A DNA stretch of 64,000 nucleotides, from positions 9,648,746-9,712,745 of the forward strand of contig OX328126.1 of NCBI GenBank assembly GCA_946811695.1. Reading direction: 5' to 3'. The DNA is from Gonocerus acuteangulatus. Taxonomy: Eukaryota > Arthropoda > Insecta > Hemiptera > Coreidae. Positions within the stretch are counted from its first letter, which is position 1; each line of letters begins with the position of its first letter. Below are positions 9,500 to 63,961 of this stretch, in pieces. A model generated the notes under the pieces. The model had not been told where the DNA came from, ran no database searches, and worked only from the letters and a program-made list of their open reading frames with translations. Position numbers and translations under genes: made by a program.

Positions 9500-9520
9500 A
9501 AAATGACATAGTAAAAGAAA

Positions 9521-13800: not shown

Positions 13801-14000
13801 NNNNNNNNNNNNNNNNNNNNNNNNNNNNNNNNNNNNNNNNNNNNNNNNNNNNNNNNNNNNNNNNNNNNNNNNNNNNNNNNNNNNNNNNNNNNNNNNNNNN
13901 NNNNNNNNNNNNNNNNNNNNNNNNNNNNNNNNNNNNNNNNNNNNNNNNNNNNNNNNNNNNNNNNNNNNNNNNNNNNNNNNNNNNNNNNNNNNNNNNNNNN
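13801..14000. other. Assembly gap (200 N)
   Basis: Exactly 200 N bases, ending in a TA run directly before the first 115-bp unit. The true array length on the left is therefore unknown; the round number suggests a placeholder gap. Confidence 0.99.
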
Positions 14001-14008
14001 ATATATAT

Positions 14009-14108
14009 ACTAGCTGTGCCAGCGACTTCGTCCGCGCGGATAGTGACAGGGCAGCATTTCGTCGGTCCCTTGGAGGACGCTATAGACGATTTCTACAGTG
14101 TTTGTATA

Positions 14109-14159
<51 letters not shown>

Positions 14160-14391
14160 TAGCTGTGCCAGCGACTTCGTCCGCGCGGATAGTGACAGGG
14201 CAGCATTTCGTTGGTCCCTTGGCGGACGCTATAGACGATTTCTACAGTGTTTGTATATATATGTATATATATATATATATATTATATACTAGCTGTGCCA
14301 GCGACTTCGTCCGCGCGGATAGTGACAGGGCAGCATTTCGTCGGTCCCTTGGCGGACGCTATAGACGATTTCTACAGTGTTTGTATATATA

Positions 14392-14431
<40 letters not shown>

Positions 14432-14530
14432 CTAGCTGTGCCAGCGACTTCGTCCGCGCGGATAGTGACAGGGCAGCATTTCGTCGGTCCCTTGGAGGAC
14501 GCTATAGACGATTTCTACAGTGTTTGTATA

Positions 14531-14600
<70 letters not shown>

Positions 14601-14705
14601 CTAGCTGTGCCAGCGACTTCGTCCGCGCGGATAGTAACAGGGCAGCATTTCGTCGGTCCCTAGGAGGACGCTATAGACGATTTCTACAGTGTTTGTATAT
14701 ATATG

Positions 14706-14756
<51 letters not shown>

Positions 14757-15203
14757 TAGCTGTGCCAGCGACTTCGTCCGCGCGGATAGTGACAGGGCAG
14801 CATTTCGTCGGTCCCTTGGAGGACGCTATAGACGATTTCTACAGTGTTTGTATATATATGTATATATATACTAGCTGTGCCAGCGACTTCGTCCGCGCGG
14901 ATAGTGACAGGGCAGCATTTCGTCGGTCCCCTGGTGGACGCTATAGACGATTTCTACAGTGTTTGTATATATATGTATATATATACTAGCTGTGCCAGCG
15001 ACTTCGTCCGCGCGGATAGTGACAGGGCAGCATTTCGTCGGTCCCTTGGAGGACGCTATAGACGATTTCTACAGTGTTTATATATATATGTATATATATA
15101 TATACTAGCTGCGCCAGCGACTTCGTCCGCGCGGATAGTGACAGGGCAGCATTTCGTCGGTCCCTTGGAGGAAGCTATAGACGATTTCTACAGTGTTTAT
15201 ATA

Positions 15204-15235
<32 letters not shown>

Positions 15236-15334
15236 CTAGCTGTGCCAGCGACTTCGTCCGCGCGGATAGTGACAGGGCAGCATTTCGTCGGTCCCTTGGC
15301 GGACGCTATAGACGATTTCTACAGTGTTTGTATA

Positions 15335-15385
<51 letters not shown>

Positions 15386-16241
15386 TAGCTGTGCCAGCGA
15401 CTTAGTCCGCGCGGATAGTGACAGGGCAGCATTTCGTCGGTCCCCTGGTGGACGCTATAGACGATTTCTACAGTGTTTGTATATATATGTATATATATAC
15501 TAGCTGTGCCAGCGACTTAGTCCGCGCGGATAGTGACAGGGCAGCATTTCGTCGGTCCCCTGGTGGACGCTATAGACGATTTCTACAGTGTTTGTATATA
15601 TATGTATATATATACTAGCTGTGCCAGCGACTTCGTCCGCGCGGATAGTGACAGGGCAGCATTTCGTCGGTCCCTTGGAGGACGCTATAGACGATTTCTA
15701 CAGTGTTTGTATATATATGTATATATATACTAGCTGTGCCAGCGACTTCGTCCGCGCGGATAGTGACAGGGCAGCATTTCGTCGGTCCCTTGGAGGACGC
15801 TATAGACGATTTCTACAGTGTTTGTATATATATGTATATATATACTAGCTGTGCCAGCGACTTCGTCCGCGCGGATAGTGACAGGGCAGCATTTCGTCGG
15901 TCCCTTGGAGGACGCTATAGACGATTTCTACAGTGTTTGTATATATATGTATATATATACTAGCTGTGCCAGCGACTTCGTCCGCGCGGATAGTGACAGG
16001 GCAGCATTTCGTCGGTCCCTTGGAGGACGCTATAGACGATTTCTACAGTGTTTGTATATATATGTATATATATATACTAACTGTGCCAGCGACTTCGTCC
16101 GCGCGGATAGTGACAGGGCAGCATTTCGTCGGTCCCTTGGAGGACGCTATAGACGATTTCTACAGTGTTTGTATATATATGTATATATATACTAGCTGTG
16201 CCAGCGACTTCGTCCGCGCGGATAGTGACAGGGCAGCATTT
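14009..16241 (-). repeat. 115-bp (variable) tandem array of Helitron-like ends, 18 units
   Basis: Units begin ACTAGCTGTGCCAGCGACTT at 14009, 14157, 14288, 14431, 14600, 14756, 14870, 14985, 15104, 15236, 15384, 15499, 15614, 15729, 15844, 15959, 16077 and 16191. Each has a conserved core of about 90 bp (CGTCCGCGCGGATAGTGACA ... GACGATTTCTACAGTGTTTG) and a TA tract of variable length; the minimum period is 115. On the minus strand each unit ends GCGGACGAAGTCGC (imperfect hairpin), then a CTAG followed by T, which is the canonical Helitron 3' end. The last unit breaks off at 16241. Confidence 0.85.
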
Positions 16242-18390: not shown

Positions 18391-18884
18391 CCTATTAATA
18401 CAATTTTTAAAAAATATATATTACGTCGATTATTAAAAAAATAAAGTAATTTGATCCGAATTAATTTGCTCTTCGCCTGGGAGACAACCAAATAGAATAC
18501 CAGGTTTCGTTTTACGCCATGGCAAGTTAATCCATCTAATAAAGTCATGCTTCAGATAGACGATGAAGAGTCATATTTACCTAACGTCTTGTAGAACTCA
18601 GAAGTAGGTATATCTACTAACATCTAAAAGCATAACTCATCAGTATTTCATACGGGCCAAATAAAACATCAGATAATTAATTTTCAAGTCGTAATCTGTA
18701 AATAAATTACAAAATTTAATGAAACGTTAACATTTTTCAACTACTATGTAACCGCAAAACAGTAAATACTAGCTATACACAAAAAACTACTTGTTTTAAA
18801 TTTGTAGTTGTAACTACTGAGTATAATTAATGCATGTCCAAGATTGGGTTAAGAATTCCAGATAGTGGTACAATGGCAATAGTC

Positions 18885-19080
18885 CGAGAGCCAGTAACCG
18901 CACGTTTCATGAAGTGTTTTGAAGCACCTTCAAATTTTGCTATAATGTACCACTTGGGTAGATAAGAAGGTATACATACAATACCTACACTATTTATGGG
19001 CAATATTTTTTTGCACCTTTTCCCTATGCGCAATACCTGGTGTTCCGCGGTAAGTCTAGCCAACAGATGACTAGGTGTTC
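18885..19080. mobile_element. Foldback element F, copy 2 (fragment)
   Basis: GTCCGAGAGCCAGTAACCGC, TTTCATGAAGTGTTTT, TTTTGCTATAATGTACCACT, TGGGTAGATAAGAAGGTATA, then TTTTTTGCACCTTTTCCCTA and CAATACCTGGTG. This is one 98-bp terminal unit fused to part of the inner arm; the rest is deleted. Confidence 0.75.
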
Positions 19081-19744: not shown

Positions 19745-20098
19745 TCATGCTGTACCGTATGAAATGTCAGTTTTGGACTTGCCGATTTCCTTCAAATGTC
19801 TTGAAACTGTCGTGGCTCCTACTCCGAGTTCTTTGGCATATTCCCTAGTGATTTTTGAGGGATAAGCTTCAACCCTTTCTTTCAGGTGGTCATTGTCAAG
19901 CTTGGTCTCTGGCCTTCCTCGCTCCTCGTTGTCAAGGTAAAAATTTCCACATCGAAACCTGGAAAACCACCGGTAAACAGTTCGTTCATTCACCGTTGCC
20001 TCCCCGAAAGCCGTGTTAATGTTCATACACGCCTCAGCAGCGCTATGACCGAGCTTAAATTCATAACGAAAAATAATACGGATTTCCGTTGAAGTCAT
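19745..20098 (-). pseudogene. mariner transposase, N-terminal fragment
   Basis: 117 codons from ATG at 20098. The N-terminal helix-turn-helix of mariner transposases is clear: FRYEFKLGHSAAEA, NINTAFGEATVNERTVYRWF, RGRPETKLDND, and a second HTH region ending GVGATTVSRHLKEIGK. The family's usual transposase is about 345 residues with a D,D34D catalytic triad; only the DNA-binding third remains here and the catalytic domain is missing. The frame is intact over the fragment, so loss was by truncation rather than slow decay. Subfamily (cecropia/mori-like versus Hsmar1-like) is uncertain. Confidence 0.93.
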
Positions 20099-31187: not shown

Positions 31188-34100
31188 TTTTCATACTAAC
31201 AGAACACTGAACTACAATCTCAGAATACGTCTGCTGAATAACCTGGGGCTTCCAGGCATATTTTCTTACTAACAGAACACTGAAGTATACAATATCAGAA
31301 GACGTCTGCTGAATAACCTGGGGCTTCCAGGCATATTTTCTTACTAACAGAACACTGAAGTATACAATATCAGAATACGTCTGCTGAATAACCTGGGGCT
31401 TCCAGGCATATTTTCTTACTAACAGAACACTGAAGTATACAATATCAGAAGACGTCTGATGAATATCCTGGGGCTTCCAGGCATATTTTCTTACTATCAG
31501 AACACTGAACAATACAATCACAGAAGACGTCTGCTGAATAACCTGGGGCTTCCAGGCATATTTTCTTACTATCAGAACACCGAACTACAATCTCAGAAGA
31601 CGTCTGCTGAATAACCTGGGGCTTCCAGGCATATTTTCTTACTATCAGAACACTGAACAATACAATCTCAGAAGACGTCTGCTGAATAACCTGGGGCTTC
31701 CAGGCATATTTTCTTACTATCAGAACACCGAACTACAATCTCAGAAGACGTCTGCTGAATAACCTGGGGCTTCCAGGCATATTTTCTTACTATCAGAACA
31801 CTGAACAATACAATCTCAGAAGATGTCTGCTGAATAACCTGGGGCGTTCAGGCATATTTTCTTACTATCAGAACACTGAACAATACAATCACAGAAGACG
31901 TCTGCTGAATAACCAGGGGGCTTCCAGGCATATTTTCTTACTAACAGAACACTGAACTATACAATCTCAGAATACGTCTGCTGAATAACCTGGGGCTTCC
32001 AGGCATATTTTCTTACTAACAGAACACTGAACTATACAATCTCAGAATACGTCTGCTGAATAACCTGGGGCTTCCAGGCATATTTTCTTACTAACAGAAC
32101 ACTGAACTATACAATCTCAGAAGACGTCTGCTGAATAACCAGGGGGCTTCCAGGCATATTTTCTTACTAACAGAACACTGAAGTATACAATCTCAGAAGA
32201 CGTCTGCTGAATAACCAGGGGGCTTCCAGGCATATTTTCTTACTAACAGAACACTGAACTATACAATCTCAGAAGACGTCTGCTGAATAACCTGGGGCTT
32301 CCAGGCATATTTTCTTACTAACAGAACACTGAACTATACAATCTCAGAAGACGTCTGCGGAATAACCTGGGGCTTCAAGGCATATTTTCTTACTAACAGA
32401 ACACTGAAGTATACAATCTCAGAAGACGTCTGCTGAATAACCAGGGGGCTTCCAGGCATATTTTCTTACTAACAGAACACTGAAGTATACAATCTCAGAA
32501 GACGTCTGCTGAATAACCAGGGGGCTTCCAGGCATATTTTCTTACTAACAGAACACTGAACTATACAATCTCAGAAGATGTCTGCTGAATAACCTGGGGC
32601 TTCCAGGCATATTTTCTTACTAACAGAACACTGAACTATACAATCTCAGAATACGTCTGCTGAATAACCTGGGGTTTCCAGGCATATTTTCTTACTAACA
32701 GAACACTGAACTATACAATCTCAGAATACGTCTGCTGAATAACCTGGGGTTTCCAGGCATATTTTCTTACTAACAGAACACTGAAGTATACAATCTCAGA
32801 AGACGTCTGCTGAATAACCTGGGGCTTCCAGGCATATTTTCTTACTAACAGAACACTGAACTACAATCTCAGAAGACGTCTGCTGAATAACCAGGGGGCT
32901 TCCAGGCATATTTTCTTACTAACAGAACACTGAAGTATACAATCTCAGAAGACGTCTGCTGAATAACCAGGGGGGCTTCCAGGCATATTTTCTTACTAAC
33001 AGAACACTGAACTATACAATCTCAGAAGACGTCTGCTGAATAACCTGGGGCTTCCAGGCATATTTTCTTACTAACAGAACACTGAAGTATACAATCTCAG
33101 AAGACGTCTGCTGAATAACCTGGGGCTTCCAGGCATATTTTCTTACTATCAGAACACCGAACTACAATCTCAGAAGACGTCTGCTGAATAACCTGGGGCT
33201 TCCAGGCATATTTTCTTACTATCAGAACACTGAACAATACAATCTCAGAAGACGTCTGCTGAATAACCTGGGGCTTCCAGGCATATTTTCTTACTATCAG
33301 AACACCGAACTACAATCTCAGAAGACGTCTGCTGAATAACCTGGGGCTTCCAGGCATATTTTCTTACTATCAGAACACTGAACAATACAATCTCAGAAGA
33401 TGTCTGCTGAATAACCTGGGGCGTTCAGGCATATTTTCTTACTATCAGAACACTGAACAATACAATCACAGAAGACGTCTGCTGAATAACCAGGGGGCTT
33501 CCAGGCATATTTTCTTACTAACAGAACACTGAACTATACAATCTCAGAATACGTCTGCTGAATAACCTGGGGCTTCCAGGCATATTTTCTTACTAACAGA
33601 ACACTGAACTATACAATCTCAGAATACGTCTGCTGAATAACCTGGGGCTTCCAGGCATATTTTCTTACTAACAGAACACTGAACTATACAATCTCAGAAG
33701 ACGTCTGCTGAATAACCAGGGGGCTTCCAGGCATATTTTCTTACTAACAGAACACTGAAGTATACAATCTCAGAAGACGTCTGCTGAATAACCAGGGGGC
33801 TTCCAGGCATATTTTCTTACTAACAGAACACTGAACTATACAATCTCAGAAGACGTCTGCTGAATAACCTGGGGCTTCCAGGCATATTTTCTTACTAACA
33901 GAACACTGAACTATACAATCTCAGAAGACGTCTGCGGAATAACCTGGGGCTTCAAGGCATATTTTCTTACTAACAGAACACTGAAGTATACAATCTCAGA
34001 AGACGTCTGCTGAATAACCAGGGGGCTTCCAGGCATATTTTCTTACTAACAGAACACTGAAGTATACAATCTCAGAAGACGTCTGCTGAATAACCAGGGG

Positions 34101-35618
34101 GCTTCCAGGCATATTTTCTTACTAACAGAACACTGAACTATACAATCTCAGAAGATGTCTGCTGAATAACCTGGGGCTTCCAGGCATATTTTCTTACTAA
34201 CAGAACACTGAACTATACAATCTCAGAATTCGTCTGCTGAATAACCTGGGGTTTCCAGGCATATTTTCTTACTAACAGAACACTGAACTATACAATCTCA
34301 GAATACGTCTGCTGAATAACCTGGGGTTTCCAGGCATATTTTCTTACTAACAGAACACTGAAGTATACAATCTCAGAAGACGTCTGCTGAATAACCTGGG
34401 GCTTCCAGGCATATTTTCTTACTAACAGAACACTGAACTACAATCTCAGAAGACGTCTGCTGAATAACCAGGGGGCTTCCAGGCATATTTTCTTACTAAC
34501 AGAACACTGAAGTATACAATCTCAGAAGACGTCTGCTGAATAACCAGGGGGGCTTCCAGGCATATTTTCTTACTAACAGAACACTGAACTATACAATCTC
34601 AGAAGACGTCTGCTGAATAACCTGGGGCTTCCAGGCATATTTTCTTACTAACAGAACACTGAAGTATACAATCTCAGAAGACGTCTGCTGAATAACCAGG
34701 GGGCTTCCAGGCATATTTTCTTACTAACAGAACACTGAACTATACAATCTCAGAAGACGTCTGCTGAATAACCTGGGGCTTCCAGGCATATTTTCTTACT
34801 AACAGAACACTGAACTATACAATCTCAGAATACGTCTGCTGAATAACCTGGGGCTTCCAGGCATATTTTCTTACTAACAGAACACTGACCTATACAATCT
34901 CAGAAGACGTCTGCTGAATAACCTGGGGCTTCCAGGCATATTTTCTTACTAACAGAACACAGAACTATACAATCTCAGAAGACGTCTGCTGAATAACCTG
35001 GGGTTTCCAGGCATATTTTCTTACTAACAGAACACTGAACTATACAATCTCAGAATACGTCTGCTGAATAACCTGGGGCTTCCAGGCATATTTTCTTACT
35101 AACAGAACACTGAACTATACAATCTCAGAATACGTCTGCTGAATAACCTGGGGCTTCCAGGCATATTTTCTTACTAACAGAACACTGACCTATACAATCT
35201 CAGAAGACGTCTGCTGAATAACCTGGGGCTTCCAGGCATATTTTCTTACTAACAGAACACAGAACTATACAATCTCAGAAGACGTCTGCTGAATAACCTG
35301 GGGTTTCCAGGCATATTTTCTTACTAACAGAACACTGAACTATACAATCTCAGAATACGTCTGCTGAATAACCTGGGGCTTCCAGGCATATTTTCTTACT
35401 AACAGAACACTGAACTATACAATCTCAGAATACGTCTGCTGAATAACCTGGGGCTTCCAGGCATATTTTCTTACTAACAGAACACTGACCTATACAATCT
35501 CAGAAGACGTCTGCTGAATAACCTGGGGCTTCCAGGCATATTTTCTTACTAACAGAACACAGAACTATACAATCTCAGAAGACGTCTGCTGACTAACCTG
35601 GGGCTTCCAGGCATATTA
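31188..35618. repeat. 75-bp satellite, about 59 copies, with higher-order repeats
   Basis: Monomer TACGTCTGCTGAATAACCTG + GGGCTTCCAGGCATATTTTC + TTACTAACAGAACACTGAAC + TATACAATCTCAGAA. Rare variants show nested periods: GGGGCGTTCAGG at 31841 and 33418, and GGCTTCAAGG at 32371 and 33948, both 1577 bp apart; and ACACTGACCTATAC recurs every 300 bp (4 monomers) at about 34880, 35180 and 35480. The monomer length is a multiple of 3, which creates the minus-strand frames of VRKYAWKPQ type; length variants (72 and 76 bp) break them. Confidence 0.97.
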
Positions 35619-42711: not shown

Positions 42712-43727
42712 CCCCTTCAGTTCCGTTGTCCAGCCGGCTGGACATAACTTCTTTACTTTGTATCACACTGCCTATGGTCGATAGATGTTTACTACCACTT
42801 TGGTTTGAAGCTCTATGTATTTCTCTTCCACTTGACATCTAATATAAATTGATTCCATTCGATTTTGAAAGGTTATGTGTAAAATCTTCTCTGCTCCACC
42901 AAGAGCAGTCATGGATTCTAAAAGTTATTGACTTTTCTTTACTTATTTAGTCCAAATGGTTTCTTTTTAGTGAATAAAACTCCTTCGAATTTAATGTACA
43001 TGATATTTTTAAAGGTTGGAAGTTCAATTTTATCAATAAAGTTTGTAATAAGGTGTCTAAGAATTTTTGAAAATCCATGACCAGTATACTGCACATGGGA
43101 AGTCAACCGTCATATTTGATGTAACAATATTTTTTATCTATTTTTCAAATATTTACTGATATATTTTGTTTTTATGTTGTCAGAATTGTTTTTTTTTTTA
43201 GTACCATAATAATCCATAACTTTTTCTGAATGGTATGGGCTAGAAGGCGCCCAAACTATTCAAAAATATCATCTGTCCGTTCACATGATTTTCAAAAAAT
43301 ATATTCTTATTAGTTTTATGTTTTGTTTTTTTAAATAATCAAATAATCATTAATTTTCATTATTACTGTGCACTGACAAAAATTTCATGTCTAAAATTCT
43401 AATATATTTTTACAATACCTTTTTATATTTGAGCTTTTACAATAATATTTACTAATAATTTTTCAAATTTATTTTTTCTGAATTAATTTCTTTTAAATTG
43501 TTAATAAATTACTGCTTTAATTATATATTTTTTTAATATTTCAAAATTTTGGTTTTCATCCACAAATCGCATTACCAATGTCCAGTATACTGGACATTAC
43601 ATAACTCATGTCAGGTAAACCATAAAATTCTGAAAAAAAAATCAGGAATCTTCACAAGAGCAATACACAGCTATGGCAGGAAAATACAAAATTTTTATCA
43701 GGAAATAAAAATTCGGACCTGAAGGGG
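42712..43727. mobile_element. piggyBac-like non-autonomous element, 1016 bp
   Basis: TTAA flanks both ends (42708-42711, 43728-43731), the obligatory piggyBac target. Terminal repeats CCCCTTCAGTTCCG and CGGACCTGAAGGGG match at 13 of 14 positions. Next to each end lies a palindrome with the same arms: GTCCAGCCGGCTGGAC near 42729 and GTCCAGTATACTGGAC near 43580, both followed by AT and ATAACT. A degenerate third (CCAGTATACTGCAC) is at 43081. No transposase frame is visible. Confidence 0.82.
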
Positions 43728-43905
43728 TTAAATTACTTCCACGTAATATTTATCTGCGTAACTGTACACACAAACAAATGTAAATACACGCATTCACTCA
43801 CTCACACTCTCCCATTTCCATGCAACCTCACTCACATATTCTCTAACACAGACAACACACACACTCACCATGCGCTTTCCTGCTTATTTAATTAATCTTA
43901 TGTCT

Positions 43906-44112
43906 TTAGATTTTATTTATTAGTTCCGTTTTGTCTATAAAGTTTAATAGATTTCTAACGTTATCAGCATCATCTCCAAGTATTTCATCCATAATGTCTG
44001 ATAACATTAGCTCTTCACTAATTGACTGATATATTCGGCATTCTGTAAGTAGATGTTTCACTGTTACTTGAACGTTGCATGATTCACAGATTGGGGGTGG
44101 TTCTTTAGAAAA
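43906..44112 (-). mobile_element. I-clade/Jockey-group LINE ORF2 C-terminus
   Basis: LFSKEPPPICESCNVQVTVK + HLLTECRIYQ, with the CxxCxxxxTVKHLLxxC motif, then an acidic C-terminus to a stop at 43906. The first eight residues of the longer open frame come from the adjoining family B end and are not part of the LINE. Confidence 0.82.
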
Positions 44113-44153
44113 AAGTCCGACTCGCAGGAACTGCGTCATCTTAGCGCGGTTCC

Positions 44154-44199
<46 letters not shown>

Positions 44200-44897
44200 G
44201 GCACATCTACATCTAGGTCATTAGCGCCGACATCCAGGGTGTAGCGGGGAATTTCACCAGCGAGCCGTGGGATGATAAAATTCCTGCCGGAGGTTGGGAA
44301 TCGAACCCACCATCTCCCGCTTATGAATCCAAGGCGCTAGCCATTAGACCACGGGAGACCCCGGTTCCTGTTCATATCCCTATTCTCATTTGAAAAGCAT
44401 AGAATAGAAACAGATAATATTTTCCTCGGCCTTTGTTCAAAGGGTTTTATGGCTGGCTATACCTGGGGTCAGGTCCGCAAGACCCTAGAATCCTCTTCTA
44501 CCGATACTTCATTTCATACGTTTCAATGAATTGGAAAATATCAAATATTTTCACACATTCCTGTGTTCTTTTACTATAGTAATAATTCTACAGATAAAAT
44601 CAATTAAAAAATAAAATAAAAAAACCAACAGCATAAAGGCAATTGAAAATATTCAAAAGACGTCAACGAATCTTTTTCTCTTGGCAAGCTATATTTCTAA
44701 CAATGAATTGTTTTTCTTATTTTGCCTAATCTGTTTTATTGTAAAATACATTATCCAACTATAAGCAATTAAAAAATAACAAGGAATAAAAACAGACAAA
44801 AAGAAGAGTTCGAATAAGCAAAATCAATTACTTTAATGTTTTAAGCACTTATTTCTCCGATTGACATCGCCTAATCAAAACTTTCATCAGAACCTTT
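44107..44897 (+). mobile_element. Helentron-like family B, copy 2 (5' portion, SINE inside)
   Basis: 5' AAAAAAGTCCGACTCGCAGG + AACTGCGTCATCTTAGCGCG + GTTCC, SINE at 44157-44362, then GTTCATATCCCTATTCTCAT. From 44740 it matches the complement of 63480-63640 (CATTATCCAACTATAAGCAA, AAAATAACAAGGAATAAAAA, TTCTCCGATTGACATCGCCT). It is cut at about 44897 by a family 2 SINE. Confidence 0.78.
44157..44362 (-). mobile_element. tRNA-derived SINE, family 1, copy 4
   Basis: Long T-run (44157-44197, the A-tail), CATTAGCGCCGACATCCAGG, GGGAATCGAACCCACCATCT, CACGGGAGACCCC head. Flanks GGTTCCAG and GGTTCCTG form an 8-bp target duplication with one mismatch. The 63.9-kb copy of family B shows the empty site (GCGGTTCCGTTCATATCCC read on the minus strand). 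Confidence 0.9.
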
Positions 44898-45054
44898 TTG
44901 TAGAGCATTTAGTAAGCTTGGCCTAGGGACGGTCAGGGAGGCCGAATTCAATCCATGAACGAAGACACTAGAAGAAAAAAAGCTTTAGTGCTTGATCGGG
45001 ATTTGAACTCCAGTCCAGTGCCACTGAGCTAACCTCGCCCCCTGGCAACACTAA
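44898..45054 (-). mobile_element. tRNA-derived SINE, family 2, copy 3 (best copy)
   Basis: On the minus strand: GGGGGCGAGGTTAGCTCAGT + GGCACTGGACT (A box), GAGTTCAAATCCCGATC (B box), body TCGTTCATGGATTGAATTCG. Its head lies directly next to the pseudogene starting at 45053. Confidence 0.82.
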
Positions 45055-45213
45055 AATGCCATGTTTTATTTGTGAATGGGATAGTACAGCCCGATCCGAT
45101 CACTGGACAAGAAAACATTTGAAGCAGAGGGACAGCCTCGTGCGAGGAAGGACAAATGTAATTCATGAGTGTCTTGTGGACACCAATTATTATCTTTTAT
45201 TACCTTGCGCATA
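45053..45213 (+). pseudogene. Degenerate uncharacterised arthropod multicopy protein, upstream part
   Basis: One frame without a stop until 45209 reads KMPCFICEWDSTARSDHW, then RKHLKQRDSLVRGRTNVIHE, CLVDTNYYLLLPCA and a stop; the next codons GLIKQYLKPLNKDGN already belong to the first satellite monomer. The order C-x2-C-x-WDS-x-A, W, NVxxExLVD, LLP, (HIKL)GLxKQ is one I associate with uncharacterised, highly repeated proteins in insect and other invertebrate genomes, possibly transposon-derived. A small indel removes the HIKL step. Family recall is from memory and needs a search. Confidence 0.7.
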
Positions 45214-48200
45214 AGGCTTAATAAAGCAATATTTGAAGCCTTTGAATAAAGACGGCAATTGCTACAACTATATTAGGCTTAATAAAGCAGTATTTGAAGC
45301 CTTTGAATAAAGACGGCAATTGCTACAAATATATTAGGCTTAATAAAGCAATATTTGAAGCCTTTGAATAAAGACGGCAATTGCTACAAATATATTAGGC
45401 TTAATAAAGCAATATTTGAAGCCTTTGAATAAAGACGGCAATTGCTACAACTATATTAGGCTTAATAAAGCAATATTTGAAGCCTTTGAATAAAGACGGC
45501 AATTGCTACAACTATATTAGGCTTAATAAAGCAATATTTGAAGCCTTTGAATAAAGACGGCAATTGCTACAACTATATTAGGCTTAATAAAGCAATATTT
45601 GAAGCCTTTGAATAAAGACGGCAATTGCTACAACTATATTAGGCTTAATAAAGCAATATTTGAAGCCTTTGAATAAAGACGGCAATTGCTACAACTATAT
45701 TAGGCTTAATAAAGCAATATTTGAAGCCTTTGAATAAAGACGGCAATTGCTACAAATATATTAGGCTTAATAAAGCAATATTTGAAGCCTTTGAATAAAG
45801 ACGGCAATTGCTACAAATATATTAGGCTTAATAAAGCAGTATTTGAAGCCTTTGAATAAAGACGGCAATAGCTACAAATATATTAGGCTTAATAAAGCAG
45901 TATTTGAAGCCTTTGAATAAAGACGGCAATTGCTACAAATATATTAGGCTTAATAAAGCAGTATTTGAAGCCTTTGAATAAAGACGGCAATTGCTACAAA
46001 TATATTAGGCTTAATAAAGCAATATTTGAAGCCTTTGAATAAAGACGGCAATTGCTACAAATATATTAGGCTTAATAAAGCAATATTTGAAGCCTTTGAA
46101 TAAAGACGGCAATTGCTACAAATATATTAGGCTTAATAAAGCAATATTTGAAGCCTTTGAATAAAGACGGCAATTGCTACAAATATATTAGGCTTAATAA
46201 AGCAGTATTTGAAGCCTTTGAATAAAGACGGCAATTGCTACAAATATATTAGGCTTAATAAAGCAGTATTTGAAGCCTTTTAATAAAGACGGCAATTGCT
46301 ACAAATATATTAGGCTTAATAAAGCAATATTTGAAGCCTTTGAATAAAGACGGCAATTGCTACAAATATATTAGGCTTAATAAAGCAATATTTGAAGCCT
46401 TTGAATAAAGACGGCAATTGCTACAAATATATTAGGCTTAATAAAGCAATATTTGAAGCCTTTGAATAAAGACGGCAATTGCTACAAATATATTAGGCTT
46501 AATAAAGCAGTATTTGAAGCCTTTGAATAAAGACGGCAATTGCTACAAATATATTAGGCTTAATAAAGCAATATTTGAAGCCTTTGAATAAAGACGGCAA
46601 TTGCTACAAATATATTAGGCTTAATAAAGCAATATTTGAAGCCTTTGAATAAAGACGGCAATTGCTACAAATATATTAGGCTTAATAAAGCAATATTTGA
46701 AGCCTTTGAATAAAGACGGCAATTGCTACAAATATATTAGGCTTAATAAAGCAATATTTGAAGCCTTTGAATAAAGACGGCAATTGCTACAAATATATTA
46801 GGCTTAATAAAGCAATATTTGAAGCCTTTGAATAAAGACGGCAATTGCTACAAATATATTAGGCTTAATAAAGCAGTATTTGAAGCCTTTTAATAAAGAC
46901 GGCAATTGCTACAAATATATTAGGCTTAATAAAGCAATATTTGAAGCCTTTGAATAAAGACGGCAATTGCTACAAATATATTAGGCTTAATAAAGCAATA
47001 TTTGAAGCCTTTGAATAAAGACGGCAATTGCTACAAATATATTAGGCTTAATAAAGCAATATTTGAAGCCTTTGAATAAAGACGGCAATTGCTACAAATA
47101 TATTAGGCTTAATAAAGCAGTATTTGAAGCCTTTGAATAAAGACGGCAATTGCTACAAATATATTAGGCTTAATAAAGCAATATTTGAAGCCTTTGAATA
47201 AAGACGGCAATTGCTACAAATATATTAGGCTTAATAAAGCAATATTTGAAGCCTTTGAATAAAGACGGCAATTGCTACAAATATATTAGGCTTAATAAAG
47301 CAATATTTGAAGCCTTTGAATAAAGACGGCAATTGCTACAAATATATTAGGCTTAATAAAGCAGTATTTGAAGCCTTTTAATAAAGACGGCAATTGCTAC
47401 AAATATATTAGGCTTAATAAAGCAGTATTTGAAGCCTTTGAATAAAGACGGCAATTGCTACAAATATATTAGGCTTAATAAAGCAGTATTTGAAGCCTTT
47501 GAATAAAGACGGCAATTGCTACAAATATATTAGGCTTAATAAAGCAATATTTGAAGCCTTTGAATAAAGACGGCAATTGCTACAAATATATTAGGCTTAA
47601 TAAAGCAGTATTTGAAGCCTTTTAATAAAGACGGCAATTGCTACAAATATATTAGGCTTAATAAAGCAATATTTGAAGCCTTTGAATAAAGACGGCAATT
47701 GCTACAAATATATTAGGCTTAATAAAGCAGTATTTGAAGCCTTTGAATAAAGACGGCAATTGCTACAAATATATTAGGCTTAATAAAGCAGTATTTGAAG
47801 CCTTTGAATAAAGACGGCAATTGCTACAAATATATTAGGCTTAATAAAGCAATATTTGAAGCCTTTGAATAAAGACGGCAATTGCTACAAATATATTAGG
47901 CTTAATAAAGCAATATTTGAAGCCTTTGAATAAAGACGGCAATTGCTACAAATATATTAGGCTTAATAAAGCAATATTTGAAGCCTTTGAATAAAGACGG
48001 CAATTGCTACAAATATATTAGGCTTAATAAAGCAGTATTTGAAGCCTTTTAATAAAGACGGCAATTGCTACAAATATATTAGGCTTAATAAAGCAGTATT
48101 TGAAGCCTTTGAATAAAGACGGCAATTGCTACAAATATATTAGGCTTAATAAAGCAGTATTTGAAGCCTTTGAATAAAGACGGCAATTGCTACAAATATA

Positions 48201-51200
48201 TTAGGCTTAATAAAGCAATATTTGAAGCCTTTGAATAAAGACGGCAATTGCTACAAATATATTAGGCTTAATAAAGCAGTATTTGAAGCCTTTTAATAAA
48301 GACGGCAATTGCTACAAATATATTAGGCTTAATAAAGCAATATTTGAAGCCTTTGAATAAAGACGGCAATTGCTACAAATATATTAGGCTTAATAAAGCA
48401 ATATTTGAAGCCTTTGAATAAAGACGGCAATTGCTACAAATATATTAGGCTTAATAAAGCAATATTTGAAGCCTTTGAATAAAGACGGCAATTGCTACAA
48501 ATATATTAGGCTTAATAAAGCAATATTTGAAGCCTTTGAATAAAGACGGCAATTGCTACAAATATATTAGGCTTAATAAAGCAATATTTGAAGCCTTTGA
48601 ATAAAGACGGCAATTGCTACAAATATATTAGGCTTAATAAAGCAATATTTGAAGCCTTTGAATAAAGACGGCAATTGCTACAAATATATTAGGCTTAATA
48701 AAGCAGTATTTGAAGCCTTTGAATAAAGACGGCAATTGCTACAAATATATTAGGCTTAATAAAGCAATATTTGAAGCCTTTGAATAAAGACGGCAATTGC
48801 TACAAATATATTAGGCTTAATAAAGCAATATTTGAAGCCTTTGAATAAAGACGGCAATTGCTACAAATATATTAGGCTTAATAAAGCAATATTTGAAGCC
48901 TTTGAATAAAGACGGCAATTGCTACAAATATATTAGGCTTAATAAAGCAATATTTGAAGCCTTTGAATAAAGACGGCAATTGCTACAAATATATTAGGCT
49001 TAATAAAGCAATATTTGAAGCCTTTGAATAAAGACGGCAATTGCTACAAATATATTAGGCTTAATAAAGCAATATTTGAAGCCTTTGAATAAAGACGGCA
49101 ATTGCTACAAATATATTAGGCTTAATAAAGCAATATTTGAAGCCTTTGAATAAAGACGGCAATTGCTACAAATATATTAGGCTTAATAAAGCAATATTTG
49201 AAGCCTTTGAATAAAGACGGCAATTGCTACAAATATATTAGGCTTAATAAAGCAGTATTTGAAGCCTTTTAATAAAGACGGCAATTGCTACAAATATATT
49301 AGGCTTAATAAAGCAGTATTTGAAGCCTTTGAATAAAGACGGCAATTGCTACAAATATATTAGGCTTAATAAAGCAGTATTTGAAGCCTTTGAATAAAGA
49401 CGGCAATTGCTACAAATATATTAGGCTTAATAAAGCAATATTTGAAGCCTTTGAATAAAGACGGCAATTGCTACAAATATATTAGGCTTAATAAAGCAGT
49501 ATTTGAAGCCTTTGAATAAAGACGGCAATTGCTACAAATATATTAGGCTTAATAAAGCAATATTTGAAGCCTTTGAATAAAGACGGCAATTGCTACAACT
49601 ATATTAGGCTTAATAAAGCAATATTTGAAGCCTTTGAATAAAGACGGCAATTGCTACAAATATATTAGGCTTAATAAAGCAGTATTTGAAGCCTTTGAAT
49701 AAAGACGGCAATTGCTACAAATATATTAGGCTTAATAAAGCAATATTTGAAGCCTTTGAATAAAGACGGCAATTGCTACAACTATATTAGGCTTAATAAA
49801 GCAATATTTGAAGCCTTTGAATAAAGACGGCAATTGCTACAAATATATTAGGCTTAATAAAGCAATATTTGAAGCCTTTGAATAAAGACGGCAATTGCTA
49901 CAAATATATTAGGCTTAATAAAGCAGTATTTGAAGCCTTTGAATAAAGACGGCAATTGCTACAAATATATTAGGCTTAATAAAGCAATATTTGAAGCCTT
50001 TGAATAAAGACGGCAATTGCTACAAATATATTAGGCTTAATAAAGCAATATTTGAAGCCTTTGAATAAAGACGGCAATTGCTACAAATATATTAGGCTTA
50101 ATAAAGCAATATTTGAAGCCTTTGAATAAAGACGGCAATTGCTACAAATATATTAGGCTTAATAAAGCAATATTTGAAGCCTTTGAATAAAGACGGCAAT
50201 TGCTACAAATATATTAGGCTTAATAAAGCAATATTTGAAGCCTTTGAATAAAGACGGCAATTGCTACAAATATATTAGGCTTAATAAAGCAGTATTTGAA
50301 GCCTTTGAATAAAGACGGCAATTGCTACAAATATATTAGGCTTAATAAAGCAATATTTGAAGCCTTTGAATAAAGACGGCAATTGCTACAAATATATTAG
50401 GCTTAATAAAGCAATATTTGAAGCCTTTGAATAAAGACGGCAATTGCTACAAATATATTAGGCTTAATAAAGCAATATTTGAAGCCTTTGAATAAAGACG
50501 GCAATTGCTACAAATATATTAGGCTTAATAAAGCAATATTTGAAGCCTTTGAATAAAGACGGCAATTGCTACAAATATATTAGGCTTAATAAAGCAATAT
50601 TTGAAGCCTTTGAATAAAGACGGCAATTGCTACAAATATATTAGGCTTAATAAAGCAATATTTGAAGCCTTTGAATAAAGACGGCAATTGCTACAAATAT
50701 ATTAGGCTTAATAAAGCAATATTTGAAGCCTTTGAATAAAGACGGCAATTGCTACAAATATATTAGGCTTAATAAAGCAATATTTGAAGCCTTTGAATAA
50801 AGACGGCAATTGCTACAAATATATTAGGCTTAATAAAGCAATATTTGAAGCCTTTGAATAAAGACGGCAATTGCTACAAATATATTAGGCTTAATAAAGC
50901 AATATTTGAAGCCTTTGAATAAAGACGGCAATTGCTACAAATATATTAGGCTTAATAAAGCAATATTTGAAGCCTTTGAATAAAGACGGCAATTGCTACA
51001 AATATATTAGGCTTAATAAAGCAGTATTTGAAGCCTTTGAATAAAGACGGCAATTGCTACAAATATATTAGGCTTAATAAAGCAGTATTTGAAGCCTTTG
51101 AATAAAGACGGCAATTGCTACAAATATATTAGGCTTAATAAAGCAATATTTGAAGCCTTTGAATAAAGACGGCAATTGCTACAAATATATTAGGCTTAAT

Positions 51201-52103
51201 AAAGCAATATTTGAAGCCTTTGAATAAAGACGGCAATTGCTACAAATATATTAGGCTTAATAAAGCAGTATTTGAAGCCTTTGAATAAAGACGGCAATTG
51301 CTACAAATATATTAGGCTTAATAAAGCAGTATTTGAAGCCTTTGAATAAAGACGGCAATTGCTACAAATATATTAGGCTTAATAAAGCAATATTTGAAGC
51401 CTTTGAATAAAGACGGCAATTGCTACAAATATATTAGGCTTAATAAAGCAATATTTGAAGCCTTTGAATAAAGACGGCAATTGCTACAAATATATTAGGC
51501 TTAATAAAGCAATATTTGAAGCCTTTGAATAAAGACGGCAATTGCTACAAATATATTAGGCTTAATAAAGCAATATTTGAAGCCTTTGAATAAAGACGGC
51601 AATTGCTACAAATATATTAGGCTTAATAAAGCAATATTTGAAGCCTTTGAATAAAGACGGCAATTGCTACAAATATATTAGGCTTAATAAAGCAATATTT
51701 GAAGCCTTTGAATAAAGACGGCAATTGCTACAAATATATTAGGCTTAATAAAGCAATATTTGAAGCCTTTGAATAAAGACGGCAATTGCTACAAATATAT
51801 TAGGCTTAATAAAGCAGTATTTGAAGCCTTTTAATAAAGACGGCAATTGCTACAAATATATTAGGCTTAATAAAGCAATATTTGAAGCCTTTGAATAAAG
51901 ACGGCAATTGCTACAAATATATTAGGCTTAATAAAGCAGTATTTGAAGCCTTTTAATAAAGACGGCAATTGCTACAAATATATTAGGCTTAATAAAGCAA
52001 TATTTGAAGCCTTTGAATAAAGACGGCAATTGCTACAAATATATTAGGCTTAATAAAGCAATATTTGAAGCCTTTTAATAAAGACGGCAATTGCTACAAA
52101 TAT
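45214..52103 (+). repeat. 61-bp satellite, about 113 copies
   Basis: Monomer AGGCTTAATAAAGCAATATT + TGAAGCCTTTGAATAAAGAC + GGCAATTGCTACAAATATAT + T. Period 61 is seen as a one-base drift per 60-base line over the whole array. Variation is confined to a few sites (CAATAT/CAGTAT, CTTTGAA/CTTTTAA, CAAATAT/CAACTAT, one CAATAG). The first ten copies carry the CAACTAT variant more often. Because 61 is not a multiple of 3, the array is not coding beyond the first monomer. Confidence 0.98.
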
Positions 52104-52330
52104 GTTTGCAAGGTTCCCTGGAATATTTGATGATAAAGGTAAAGAGGGAGTACTCACATTTGGAATCTTTTTCCAAAAACTCTCAGCTGTGTCAGCGGAA
52201 AGATTTTATCAGAACATAAAGGAAATGGAAGGCGCTACCAGGGAAAGTGGAAAATAAATATGATAGCTGATTATTGCCGGGTGCTGAAAAGAGATGTATC
52301 AAATTCTTTCCACAGTAGGAACACTATACA
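52087..52330 (+). pseudogene. Degenerate uncharacterised arthropod multicopy protein, downstream part
   Basis: After the last monomer the frame ARFPGIFDDKGKEGVLTF is followed by FFQKLSAVSAERFYQNIKEM + E; a frame change then gives QGKWKINMIADYCRVLKRDV and a stop. FPGxxDxKxKEG, (G)AVSxERFxQxIxxME and KWxxxMxADYCxxLKRD are, as I recall them, successive blocks of the same family as the upstream piece. About 90 residues expected between KEGVLT and FFxxxxAVS are missing. Polyadenylation-like AATAAA and an A-run follow at 52528-52556. Confidence 0.7.
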
Positions 52331-53955
52331 CCATTCATTTCAAAGTAGGTTTTAAAAAACTGGTCAAATGTTCAAATTTTAGCGATAATGCGAATTAGTT
52401 ACCTTTGAAGATTGTTGTGCTGATAATTATGGATTTATTAACTCATATTTAATAATATAACATAAATTCAATAGAGGCTAGTCGATGTTTGTACGAGATG
52501 AATTCTTGTAAAAAATTTAATAACCAATAAAGAAATAAAACTAAAAAAAAAAAAAAGAAAAGGATAATAAAAACTGTTGTGGACATTTGTGGAATCTTAA
52601 TTGCCATTATAAAGTTCATATTCCACCATCGAGCAATTCCAACAAAGAATTTTTAATCATTCTTCAACGATCCTTTTTCATCTTGAGTAATATCTTGGCG
52701 GTGGGTAGATGGGCAGGCCAAGTTCCGGCCTAAGCATACTGTGTGTATATTACAGGCGGTCTTAGAGCCGATTTTTACCTTCTCATAACTTGCAACCAGG
52801 TAAAGATAAAGTTATGAAATTTTACGCAGGTATTATACTACTAGATGTGAGTAAAACTGGAAATTTTCATAATTCTACCTGGAATAGTTTCTGAGATATA
52901 AGCGATCGAAAATCGGGATTTATAGGACTCACTCACTCACTCACTCATCAAAATTATTAGGCACTTCCCATGATGCTAGAGACTGGAAATTTTGAATGAA
53001 GATAGATATGAAGACATTATTAAAGGAAAAAATCGAAAAATCGCGAAAAGTTGTGGCAATGTTTAGTTTTTCTCTAAAGATAATTTCGGCACAAAAAAAA
53101 AATTGTCAAGTTTAAGAATATACCTGGTTGAGGAAAGTGATATTTTAGTAACTGGATATAAGTATTTCTATTGTTGTTTTTAAAGGTCAGTTGAAGTGTC
53201 TTTACTGTTCATAGTAAGTAACTATGAGGTCTTCCAAGTAATGAACTTGGACATTTCTTTCTTGTATCATCTCTTGTATTGGCAAATATGTTTGGTTGAA
53301 AATATGGTGCACTTAATACACTAACTCATGCTACTTTTTTGGAGTGTAGGATGGTTAGGCGTTTTGGGGGGGTTTTAGGAGGGATATTTTTGGGGAAGGG
53401 AGTGTTTCTTTGTGGGGGGAGGAACTTGGCCTCTATTTCACATTTATGTTTTTTTGGGGGGGGGGTTCATTAAAAACAAGTTACAGAAATTTATGACGTA
53501 ATACAATAGCTATTATTAACACGATGCCTTTTAATTACACCTCATTACCGGGACTTGGGGGAGGGGGGTTTCCATGACGAGAATCTACCCCATATCCTGC
53601 CGGCGTATTTCATTCCGAAACAGTAAGCTACATGACATTAACGAAGGTTATATCGGAGAGCGGTTATTCTGCCCGTAATTGGACAGGACTGAGTACCACC
53701 AAACACACCGCCAACACCTCTAATAGTCCTGTCAGTCTGTTCTCGGTCCTACTCTTTCCTCATTATGGCGTCATATAATGGATGAGACATTTTATCTACT
53801 CGCTGGAAATACGGATAATTTCAAAGGAAAATTAATTAATTAATACAAAATCATTGGAATAAATATTGTACAGTTATTCAGCGAACACTTAGAATGTCGC
53901 CAGCGGATCAATTTTCTTTCTAGCCGAATTAATACTTAGATGAAGTTTTCATAGG
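52331..53955. other. Unassigned sequence with possible 3' tail
   Basis: 52527-52556 has AATAAAGAAATAAAACT followed by an A-run, which may be the 3' end of a retrocopied transcript of the preceding pseudogene. G-rich tracts at 53360-53470 and 53555. No gene recognised. Confidence 0.45.
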
Positions 53956-53957
53956 CT

Positions 53958-54706
53958 GCACGTGCGTGTTAGTATCGTGGTGAGAGCGTCTTTATCAGCC
54001 CGCACCAGTGTGTGAGTAGCATTCTGAGAGCGTCATTATCAGCCCTCACCAGTGTGTGAGTGCGTCTGCATCAGCCCGCACGAGCATGTGAGAAGCGTGG
54101 GGAGAGCGGCTTTATCGTCCCGTAGTAGTGTTGTCGTAGCGTGGTGAGAGCGACTCTATCAGCCACAAAAAGTGTGTGAGTTTCGTGGCGAGAGCGTCTT
54201 CATTAGCCCGCACAAGTGTGTGAGTAGCGTAGAGATTGAGTCATCATCAACCCGCACCAGGGTGTGGGTATCGTGGTATGTGTCTTCATCAGCCCACACC
54301 AGTAGGTGAGTAGCGTGGTGAGAGCGAATTCATCAGCCCGCACAAGTGTGCGAGTATCGTGGTGAGAGCGTCTTCATCAGCCCGCACAATTGTGCGAGTA
54401 GCGTGGTGAGAACGTCTTCATCAGTCCGCACCAGTTGTGAGTAGCGTTGTGAGAGCGTATTCATCATCCCGCATAAGTGTGTGAGTACCTTAGTAAAAGC
54501 GTCTTTATCATCCCGCACCAGTGTGTGAGTAGCTTTTGTGAGAGCGTCTTCATCAGCCCGCACCAGTGTGTGAGTAGCGTGGTGGGAGCGTCTTCATCAG
54601 CCCGCACCAGTGTGTGAGTATCGTAGTGAGAGCTTCTTCATCAGCCCTTACGAGTGTGTGAGTAGCGTGGTGAGAGCGTCTTCACCAGCCCGCACCAGTG
54701 CGGTAT
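53958..54706. repeat. 44-bp minisatellite, about 17 degenerate copies
   Basis: Unit AGCGTGGTGAGAGCGTCTTC + ATCAGCCCGCACCAGTGTGT + GAGT; period 44 from 54567 to 54611. Copies differ by substitutions and small indels, so it is older than the other arrays. GC-rich relative to its surroundings. The minus-strand open frame here is an artefact. Confidence 0.93.
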
Positions 54707-57252: not shown

Positions 57253-57450
57253 CTATTTCAACATATCGCACTAGTATTTCTAAAGTGACACAACTCAAAA
57301 ATCGGTTTTATTCACACCGTCATAAGCGTATGTCAAAGGGTTAATGACTAAAACGGAAACATCTAAAAGCAAACTATAAAACACCGAACTAACCATGAAA
57401 CAGATTCTAAAGCGGCCCCTACACGGTGAGTAATAATGACATTATGAGTA

Positions 57451-59590
57451 ATGTCATTACTATTCAACTCTCGTCATTCCATATCATCATTACAATATAC
57501 ACCTTACACCGTCATTCCACGGATCATTTTTAATGTCATTACTATTCAACTCCCGTCATTCCATATCATCATTACAATATACACCTTACACCGTCATTCC
57601 ACGGATCATTTTTAATGTCATTACTATTCAACTCTTGTCATTCCATATCATCATTACAATGTACACCTTACACCGTCATTCCACGGATCATTTTTAATGT
57701 CATTACTATTCAACTCTCGTCATTCCATATCATCATTACAATGTACACCTTACACCGTCATTCCACGGATCATTTTTAATGTCATTACTATTCTACTCTC
57801 GTCATTCCATATCATCATTACAATATACACCTTACACCGTCATTCCACGGATCATTTTTAATGTCATTACTATTCTACTCTCGTCATTCCATATCATCAT
57901 TACAATATACACCTTACACCGTCATTCCACGGATCATTTTTATTGTCATTACTATTCAACTCTCGTCATTCCATATCATCATTACAATGTACACCTTACA
58001 CCGTCATTCCACGGATCATTTTTAATGGCATTACTATTCTACTCTCGTCATTCCATATCATCATTACAATATACACCTTACACCGTCATTCCACGGATCA
58101 TTTTTATTGTCATTACTATTCAACTCCCGTCATTCCATATCATCATTACAATGTACACCTTACACCGTCATTCCACGGATCATTTTTAATGTCATTACTA
58201 TTCTACTCTCGTCATTCCATATCATCATTACAATATACACCTTACACCGTCATTCCACGGATCATTTTTAATGTCATTACTATTCTACTCTCGTCATTCC
58301 ATATCATCATTACAATATACACCTTACACCGTCATTCCACGGATCATTTTTATTGTCATTACTATTCAACTCTCGTCATTCCATATCATCATTACAATGT
58401 ACACCTTACACCGTCATTCCACGGATCATTTTTAATGGCATTACTATTCTACTCTCGTCATTCCATATCATCATTACAATATACACCTTACACAGTCATT
58501 CCACGGATCATTTTTATTGTCATTACTATTCAACTCCCGTCATTCCATATCATCATTACAATGTACACCTTACACCGTCATTCCACGGATCATTTTTAAT
58601 GGCATTACTATTCAGCTCCCGTCATTCCATATCATCATTACAATGTACACATTACACCGTCATTCCACGGATCATTTTTAATGGCATTACTATTCAACTC
58701 CCGTCATTCCATATCATCATTACAATGTACACCTTACACCGTCATTCCACGGATCATTTTTAATGTCATTACTATTCTACTCTCGTCATTCCATATCATC
58801 ATTACAATATACACCTTACACCGTCATTCCACGGATCATTTTTAATGTCATTACTATTCTACTCTCGTCATTCCATATCATCATTACAATATACACCTTA
58901 CACCGTCATTCCACGGATCATTTTTATTGTCATTACTATTCAACTCTCGTCATTCCATATCATCATTACAATGTACACCTTACACCGTCATTCCACGGAT
59001 CATTTTTAATGGCATTACTATTCTACTCTCGTCATTCCATATCATCATTACAATATACACCTTACACCGTCATTCCACGGATCATTTTTATTGTCATTAC
59101 TATTCAACTCCCGTCATTCCATATCATCATTACAATGTACACCTTACACCGTCATTCCACGGATCATTTTTAATGGCATTACTATTCAGCTCCCGTCATT
59201 CCATATCATCATTACAATGTACACATTACACCGTCATTCCACGGATCATTTTTAATGTCATTACTATTCAACTCCCGTCATTCCATATCATCATTACAAT
59301 GTACACCTTACACCGTCATTCCACGGATCATTTTTAATGGCATTACTATTCAACTCTCGTCGTTCCATATCATCATTACAATGTACACCTTACACCGTCA
59401 TTCCACGGATCATTTTTAATGTCATTACTATTCTACTCTCGTCATTCCATATCATCATTACAATGTACACCTTACACCGTCATTCCACGGATCATTTTTA
59501 ATGTCATTACTATTCTACTCTCGTCATTCCATATCATCATTACAATGTACACCTTACACCGTCATTCCACGGAGCATTTTTAATGTCATT
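57451..59590. repeat. 82-bp satellite, 26 copies, with a 12-mer higher-order unit
   Basis: Monomer ATGTCATTACTATTCAACTC + TCGTCATTCCATATCATCAT + TACAATGTACACCTTACACC + GTCATTCCACGGATCATTTTTA. 57451 to 59583 is exactly 26 x 82. The variant pattern starting at 57779 recurs at 58763 (984 bp, 12 monomers), and 57943 resembles 58353 (410 bp, 5 monomers). Since the monomer has no stop in the frames used and three monomers equal 82 codons, a spurious 218-codon frame runs through it. Confidence 0.97.
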
Positions 59591-60022
59591 ACTTTTCTTC
59601 AGTATGCATTGTCATCTCCGTGACAGAAGCGTTTTGTTGATAATGGATCCTCGCAAAGTCGCCTGTGTAGCTATAATTGCGACACTAGCCACAAAAAAAA
59701 ACATGTGAAACGTTCGTAAAAGCCTTAATATGACACATATCCTTCCAATCGGGGCGTTTCCAAGTGTTCTGGGACCGGGGTTATGTGCAAAAAAGTTTAC
59801 ATTGTATTTTTATTTGGATAACCATTTTTCGCAAGTACCTTTTGAGATGATACAATAGTCATTTATATGGTTAGAAAAAGGAGTCTTTCTTCTTTTGAAA
59901 GATTTCAATGACGTAAATCTCGGATTATCTCAAGGGGAGATATTGAATTTCAAAACGTCACATTACTTTTTCGCTTACAAATTTTTATTCTCTTCCAGAC
60001 TGGGAAAAATCATTATTTTTTG
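59591..60022. other. Interior of TIR element R, unassigned
   Basis: No gene or known repeat recognised. Confidence 0.4.
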
Positions 60023-61194: not shown

Positions 61195-61280
61195 CACTTT
61201 CATCCGAAGGAATTTTTGAAAAATTTCTTCAAATCTTTATCGACCCTTCCTAGTAGATATCAAAAATGACCCCCATTGAA
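61195..61280 (-). mobile_element. Helentron-like family A, 3' end fragment
   Basis: CACTTTCATCCGAAGG, TTTTTGAAAAATTTCTTCAA, TCTTTATCGACCCTTCCTAG + TAGAT, AAAATGACCCCCATTGAAAT. The hairpin arm is decayed and the fragment runs straight into foldback element F. Confidence 0.65.
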
Positions 61281-61757
61281 ATTTTGCTATAATGTACCTC
61301 TTGGGTTGATAAGAAGGTAAATATGTGTTGGCTAGAAAAAAAAATAGAGTTTTATATAGAAGCCAACTATCTTTAATGTAAAATTAAGACAATTTTACAA
61401 TGAATAATCAATAAGGCAGACACTTTTAAAGGGTGTAACATGTATTGTAGTCTATCATAAGCAACATTTATTTTCACGTTTCCTGATAATTAAACCCCAC
61501 AAAAGTGTCTGCCCTTTTGTAATTATTTTCAAATATGTTTATTGAAGACGCTGTTTAAATCGCAGCGTGAATAAAGCACTTCATTTAATATTAAAAATAA
61601 AAACTAGGTACTTTGTTTTTGTTTTGTTTTTTTATTTACATTTTAATCCCCTTAAAAGTGTCTGCCTTATTTATTATTCATTGTAAAATTGCCTTAATTT
61701 GCAATTTTTTTTTTACATTAATGATAGTCGGCTTCTGAATAAAACAATATTTTTGGG
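61281..61757. mobile_element. Foldback element F, copy 3 (fragment)
   Basis: TTTTGCTATAATGTACCTCT, GAGTTTTATATAGAAGCCAA, AAGGCAGACACTTTTAAAGG, CCCCACAAAAGTGTCTGCCC, CCCCTTAAAAGTGTCTGCCT follow copy 1 from 12380 to 13070, with a deletion near 61440. Inner arms are kept, outer ends mostly lost. Confidence 0.82.
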
Positions 61758-62936: not shown

Positions 62937-63961
62937 CTTATATATATGTCTGTTCGCTCTGTCCGATTTTGATGAAATTTGGTACAAAAATCTTTCGTCT
63001 AATTTGAAAGGTCAAGTTCGTTAAACAGCAAAATCCGCCTACTGGAAGATGGCGTTTGGGGCGAAATTCGCGCAAAAAAAAATCGTAACGCTTACGTTTT
63101 TGAGTTCATAAGCTTGTAAATACTTGTTTCATATGCTTCCTGGGCTAGGAAAACGAATGAAACCATTTTCAAGGCGATAGCTTAAACCGTTTTCGAGAAA
63201 ATTGGAAAAATAGTTTTTGAATACCGTTTTTGGTTTGGGTACTTAGAATCATGGGATTAAGTTGAAACATTTTCTGCATGTTCTACTTTCATCAAAACTA
63301 ATATGATGAAATTTTGGTTACGTTTGGAGTTAAGGAAGGGTTAGAATAAAATATTTTATTAACAGACATAAAAAGTTTTAGTAACTTTGTTTACTTTCCT
63401 TAATATCTCGAAAAAGGTTGAGAATCTTGGGAAACGGAAGAATACCATTAGAAAGCTTATTAAATGCTCTAAAAAAAAGGTTCTAATGAAAGTTTTGATT
63501 AGGCGATGTCAATCGGAGAAATAAGTGCTTAAAACTTTAAATTAATTGATTTCGTTTATTCGAATGGTTCTTTTTGTCTGTTTTATTCCTTGTTATTTTT
63601 TAATTGCTTATAATTGGATAATGTATTTGACAATAAAACTGGCTAAGTAAAATAACAAAAACAATTTATTGATAGAAATATAGATTTCCAGGATTCCAAG
63701 ACCTTGTCACTAGCGGGTCCGTTTCTAGTGTTAGCGGACCCTTCCAGGTAAGATTGTAAATCATGACCTTTCAAGACTTTACTACACACAGGAATGGTGT
63801 TAATGACCTTAAGGGTTGACACGCCATTCTAATAATTATTTAAAAAAAAAAACTGGTGGAACCAAAATAATAACTGCTTCTATTTTAATCTTTCCAAATT
63901 AGACTAGGGATATGAACGGAACCGCGCTAAGATGATGCAGTTCCTGCGAGACGGACTTTTT

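Follow-up and report, generated by a model that had tools for sequence, protein, structure and literature searches.

How did 113 head-to-tail copies of a 61-bp unit come to stand between pieces of a protein-coding sequence? The question is raised by a stretch of 64,000 nucleotides of the coreid Gonocerus acuteangulatus (assembly GCA_946811695.1, contig OX328126.1, positions 9,648,746 to 9,712,745 of the forward strand), which we call the window. The initial annotation had described a 113-copy, 61-bp satellite born inside a protein-coding sequence and placed at 45053-52330. TRF reported a tandem repeat at 45214-52103 (period 61, 113.0 copies, 98% matches), and cutting in phase confirmed the copy number and unit length at 45214-52106; the longer span takes in flanking sequence related to a large animal protein family. 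The flanks were assigned with a profile built from 115 of 120 listed family proteins and applied to the six-frame translation of the window. The features are as follows.

~45035-52343, plus strand: whole flanking pseudogene, array included (profile match)
45035-45205, plus strand: left remnant, profile positions 75-131, GNTKMPCFICEWDS...NVIHECLVD...LLLP (hmmsearch, six-frame)
45206-45213, plus strand: damaged joint left of the array, CA-stop, three codons against the family's five residues LHIKL (translation)
45214-52106, plus strand: tandem array of 113 units of exactly 61 bp, head-to-tail (TRF and in-phase cutting)
52046-52106, plus strand: last array unit, continuous with the right remnant, with T at position 31 and G at position 59 against the consensus
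52111-52164, plus strand: right remnant block 1, RFPGIFDDKGKEGVLTFG, profile positions 159-176 (forced-position ungapped score)
52174-52233, plus strand: right remnant block 2, KLSAVS..ERFYQNIKEMEG, profile positions 252-274 (profile)
52227-52343, plus strand: right remnant C-terminal block, RYQGKWKINMIADYCRVLKRD..., profile positions 273-311 (profile, BLASTP)
52526-52556, plus strand: two AATAAA motifs, at 52526 and 52534, then A14 at 52543-52556

The two outer remnants are the clearest matches. Among six-frame segments searched with hmmsearch, the left remnant scored 52.8 bits (E 6e-15), and its BLASTP matches covered 54 residues with identities of up to 55.6%; no profile homology upstream of position 75 was found in the left flank. 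The right C-terminal block scored 39.7 bits (E 5.7e-11) against the profile and was 67.7% identical to family member P0092 over 31 residues. With the array removed, the reversed window gave 5.3 bits at best, as did the remaining true window. One array unit encodes GLIKQYLKPLNKDGNCYKYI, which corresponds to profile positions 136-157. A single unit alone scored 15.5 bits (E 1.3e-3) and two-unit segments 18.5 bits (E 1.7e-4), and the segment holding the last unit (52017-52127) matched profile positions 136-158 at E 2.6e-4. Right block 1, which is shifted by one frame and lies two bases short of the family spacing, was unreported by HMMER unless its position was forced; its ungapped score of 18.3 bits at position 159 was matched by none of 38878 other 18-mers of the window (best 10.3), and none of 4000 sampled 18-mers reached it at any position (best 17.2). 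Right block 2 is weak by itself (7.7 bits, E 0.32), and its assignment is supported by its order and its adjacency to the C-terminal block. Ahead of it about 75 residues, profile positions ~177-251, are missing.

These matches show in which state the parent copy survives. The left flank and first unit read in one frame, as had been proposed, when the TAA of the damaged joint is read through; the last base of this TAA is the first base of the array. On the right side the frame shifts behind the last unit and later returns: ARFPGIF...ERFYQNIKEME, which had been taken as part of one continuation, lies one frame over, and RYQGKWKINMIADYC is once more in the frame of the last unit. The parent copy is a pseudogene, truncated and internally deleted, with a stop and two frameshifts. 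Hence the claim of a birth inside a protein-coding sequence stands insofar as the array is gene-derived, and the place of birth is better called a dead copy of the gene. Neither flank contains internal repeats of at least 14 bases. The AATAAA motifs and A14 run would fit the tail of a processed copy, which is possible; a search for a target-site duplication around this putative processed copy gave a longest shared word of 9 bases, AT-rich. By reading, the pseudogene is bordered by the head of a minus-strand tRNA-like SINE, which ends at ~45042, at profile position 75.

The parent family is very numerous. Used as a query, a consensus sequence for the family matched 4840 of 4961 candidate proteins (E up to 10), and a long family member matched 3769 proteins at E up to 1e-3. 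When the window's own left piece was compared with the protein collection, no candidate shared three common 5-residue words with it. A pseudoscorpion was the source in 9 of the 120 listed rows of the consensus search, and other sources among the matches listed were spiders, flies, moths, a firefly, a wasp, a sea slug, a tunicate and a frog. The tunicate and frog members show that the family, which the initial annotation had called an invertebrate one, is not confined to invertebrates. Full-length members have ~550-568 residues, and the consensus of two alignments gives the conserved blocks of the ~555-residue family as CFxCEWDSRA, LLPPLHIKLGLMK, KEGIFVGPQI, DEHGERFH and YQGKW..MLADYCW. The pieces in the window match these conserved blocks, and those between KEG and GERFH are deleted here.

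What this family encodes is less plain. Among the matches listed, no scanned member exceeded a Pfam cut-off; zf-AD matched weakly in one of 49 members (E 0.0017; 19 bits, cut-off 28), and weak matches to RNase H models below cut-off occurred in a few of the 49 (RT_RNaseH in 3, RT_RNaseH_2 in 2). PHROGs and NCBIfam gave no convincing match to the family, and a literature search on a family motif found nothing. The predicted structure of member P0044 has a pLDDT of 86.6, and a sequence search of solved structures returned chance-level matches only (best E 0.97 and 0.64). All 49 aligned members have D255, D309, E504 and E507, but six further H/D positions that were tested (five H and D531) are just as invariant, and no catalytic residues could be assigned from the alignment. 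The many copies per genome, the patchy occurrence in distant animals and the D-D-E pattern together make a transposase the reading that we favour, with some reserve, for the parent family. A viral or prokaryotic origin of the family was considered and rejected: none of 59 pattern matches in viral contigs or 35 in contigs of prokaryote genomes was confirmed as a family member, phage records held no relative, and the 61-bp unit sequence was absent from the viral contigs.

Whether the array arose where it lies depends on what relatives carry at this position. In a set of 239 fetched family members, searched permissively (E up to 100), 146 were matched by all four pieces; in 133 of these the matches ran from left through unit and right 1 to right 2, and in the other 13 they did not. 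The unit-equivalent block was found once in 118 of 120 members scanned and twice in one (P0001); the remaining one gave no match at threshold. In P0058 the left piece extends to residue 88, the unit-equivalent occupies residues 94-113 after a 5-residue gap, and the right block starts at residue 116, so that a single unit takes up the space between the flank blocks. As judged from these alignments, all the pieces come from one family and lie in its order, the unit supplies what the flanks lack between them, and the array takes the place of a single block native to that spot. Because the matches are in order and the block is single in relatives, the array appears to have been made in place. The initial annotation had predicted each of these points, namely a single family colinear across the left flank, unit and right flank, one monomer-equivalent in relatives, a unit block lying between the flank blocks, and amplification in place, and the comparison upheld them.

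The units themselves differ little. Only 5 of the 61 positions vary, giving 6 distinct unit sequences, and 71 of the 113 units have the consensus sequence. Position 16 is A in 80 units and G in 33, position 31 is G in 103 and T in 10, position 55 is C in 8, and positions 47 and 59 are each changed in one copy. The mean pairwise difference between units is 0.75 of 61 positions (1.2%), as read from the assembled sequence, in which part of the homogeneity could stem from assembly or polishing.

Taken together, these results make it very probable that the array arose in place from a decayed copy of a transposase-like animal gene. A copy of this multicopy gene would have landed here and decayed, leaving nothing left of profile position 75, losing ~75 residues on the right and gaining a stop and two frameshifts. 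A 61-bp stretch spanning the GL(I/M)K...KDG...KY(I/L) block would have been duplicated head-to-tail and would then have grown to ~113 units. Decay would have preceded expansion, with the first tandem duplication falling in a neutral, dead copy, and growth would have proceeded by slippage or unequal exchange with homogenisation. We take the array to be non-coding, and it probably has no function of its own.

Four other explanations were weighed against origin in place by these steps. The first is that the 61-bp unit was amplified because it can form a hairpin. Single-strand folding of the unit did beat shuffled sequences (z -3.0, -2.5 and -3.2), but other phases of the unit gave z of -1.9 to -2.5, and -2.5 was reached by 7% of 300 random 61-mers from the window; the folding is thus undistinctive against random segments, we rejected hairpin-driven amplification as a candidate, and we consider it quite unlikely. 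A search of 43500-54000 against Rfam gave no match. Microhomology at the breakpoints was likewise set aside: an AAGG direct repeat occurs at both unit boundaries, and 26% of random sites have a 4-nt match.

A second explanation is that a ready-made 61-bp satellite, formed elsewhere from a different family copy, entered the pseudogene by insertion or converted it. An insertion would normally keep the local copy of the block too, or land elsewhere, whereas this array stands, correctly oriented, exactly where the encoded block should be and in its stead. We regard a transferred satellite as highly improbable, and amplification of the resident block remains the preferred reading.

There is also a slim chance that copy number and homogeneity are mostly an artefact of assembly or polishing around a shorter or more varied array. 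That single-copy changes occur at only 2 of the 5 variable positions would fit an artefact. Against it, the 75-, 82- and 43-bp arrays of the same window are more varied (95-96% matches, compared to 98%), and the variants are structured and non-random along the array. In 2000 shuffles of the variant pattern, with 112 of the 113 units taken in, the 60 pairs of identical neighbouring units were equalled in 0.85%, the four occasions on which the position-55 variant stands beside itself in 0.05%, and the recurrence of a ten-unit variant pattern at a lag of 11 units in 0.75%; the commonest lag of shared variants was within chance (12% of shuffles). Clustered variants are the pattern expected from local duplication and exchange, and the clustering suggests that the array is young or strongly homogenised.

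That the array is the coding repeat domain of a working gene, as its encoding of a conserved protein-family block might suggest, is practically excluded, because 61 is not divisible by 3, so that the array cannot encode a long protein, every frame runs into stops (the stop-free stretches among the rows listed are 40-41 residues), the flanks are broken by a stop, frameshifts and a large deletion, and the block is single in nearly all relatives, as counted above.

The window contains several other repeats and features. A 75-bp array occupies 31184-35617 (59 copies, 95% matches; its translated edges gave no source), an 82-bp array 57449-59597 (26 copies, 96% matches), and a 43-bp array 9519-10166 (15 copies). 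Judged by its 1.2% difference between units against TRF matches of 95-96% nearby, the 61-bp array may be the youngest of these. In the 43-bp unit, 38 bp match (86.8%) a remnant at 44113-44146, left of the 61-bp array, whose minus-strand translation resembles the tail of a non-LTR retrotransposon ORF; the 43-bp array may therefore be a second array from the coding sequence of a transposable element. A 98-bp array of 5 copies lies at 11936-12428, and its unit also occurs singly at 13141-13241, 18880-18978 and 61277-61324. An array at 14001-16241, whose ~115-bp units are separated by AT-rich spacers of unequal length, adjoins a 200-base N gap (13801-14000), and a degenerate 44-bp array (53966-54700; 17 copies, 76% matches) lies 1.9 kb right of the 61-bp array. 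Dispersed repeats are present at 44682-44919, with an inverted copy at 63453-63690 (90%), and at 44916-44966, with a copy at 11029-11079 (88%). On the minus strand, a 117-residue ORF at 19745-20098 resembles the N-terminal part of a mariner-like transposase, and a tRNA-Leu (aag) is predicted at 26651-26732.

The closest precedent that we found is CficCl-61-40 of Chenopodium, a ~40-bp satellite whose arrays begin with a fragment of tnp2, the transposase of the CACTA-like element Jozin (PMC7320549). Its arrays have 94.4 units in one contig and ~125, 48 and 105 units in nanopore reads, and the identity between the parent fragment and consensus monomers is 82.1-94.9%. In both systems a short piece of transposase coding sequence (transposase by prediction here) is the start monomer of the adjoining array, the parents are deletion derivatives, the array sizes are comparable, and the orientation is the same. 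CficCl-61-40 has a ~40-bp unit, belongs to a plant, descends from a named CACTA element and is a major satellite throughout its genome. The present locus differs in its 61-bp unit, in a parent family of animal type that has no Pfam model and in the parent remnants on both sides, and it may be either a satellite of the genome or a single-locus minisatellite. Satellites related to the ORFs of transposable elements have also been described for L1 ORF2 and PROsat in Phodopus, CR1 ORF2 and HinfI in chicken, and gag and E3900 in rye (review: PMC9659126). As in those cases, the tandem unit here overlaps the coding sequence of a mobile element, which in our case is predicted. Unlike here, their parents are retroelements, and the relevant passages of that source describe similarity between unit and ORF and no array bracketed in place. 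A review of the tandemisation of transposable elements states, in the sections bearing on this point, that their parts expand into arrays and that tandem repeats can begin from virtually any sequence (PMC12692304); this is a general statement, and the present parent family is absent from those sections. Thus, we conclude that the locus is another case of a known route of repeat birth, to which it adds parental remnants flanking the array, a family of animal type and near-complete legibility. The unusual legibility that had been noted at the outset holds for the two preserved parental junctions, and the kind of event has a close precedent in CficCl-61-40 (PMC7320549).

Few tandem repeats can be seen at their birth with parent, unit and both junctions together, and here the unit, the source gene and the exact joints can all be read within one 7-kb stretch. 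This legibility makes the order of decay, first duplication, expansion and homogenisation testable in other individuals and related species. The locus also draws attention to an animal protein family with very many members and no curated Pfam match above cut-off. It is conceivable, though we think it rather doubtful, that this is an animal-wide, uncurated transposase-like family, with a zinc-finger-like N-terminus and a D-D-E core, whose decayed copies seed arrays in place, as CACTA tnp2 does in Chenopodium. If this were true, the locus would be a snapshot of array seeding with both parental junctions intact, and coding segments of transposases would be recurrent nurseries of new satellites in animals and plants alike.
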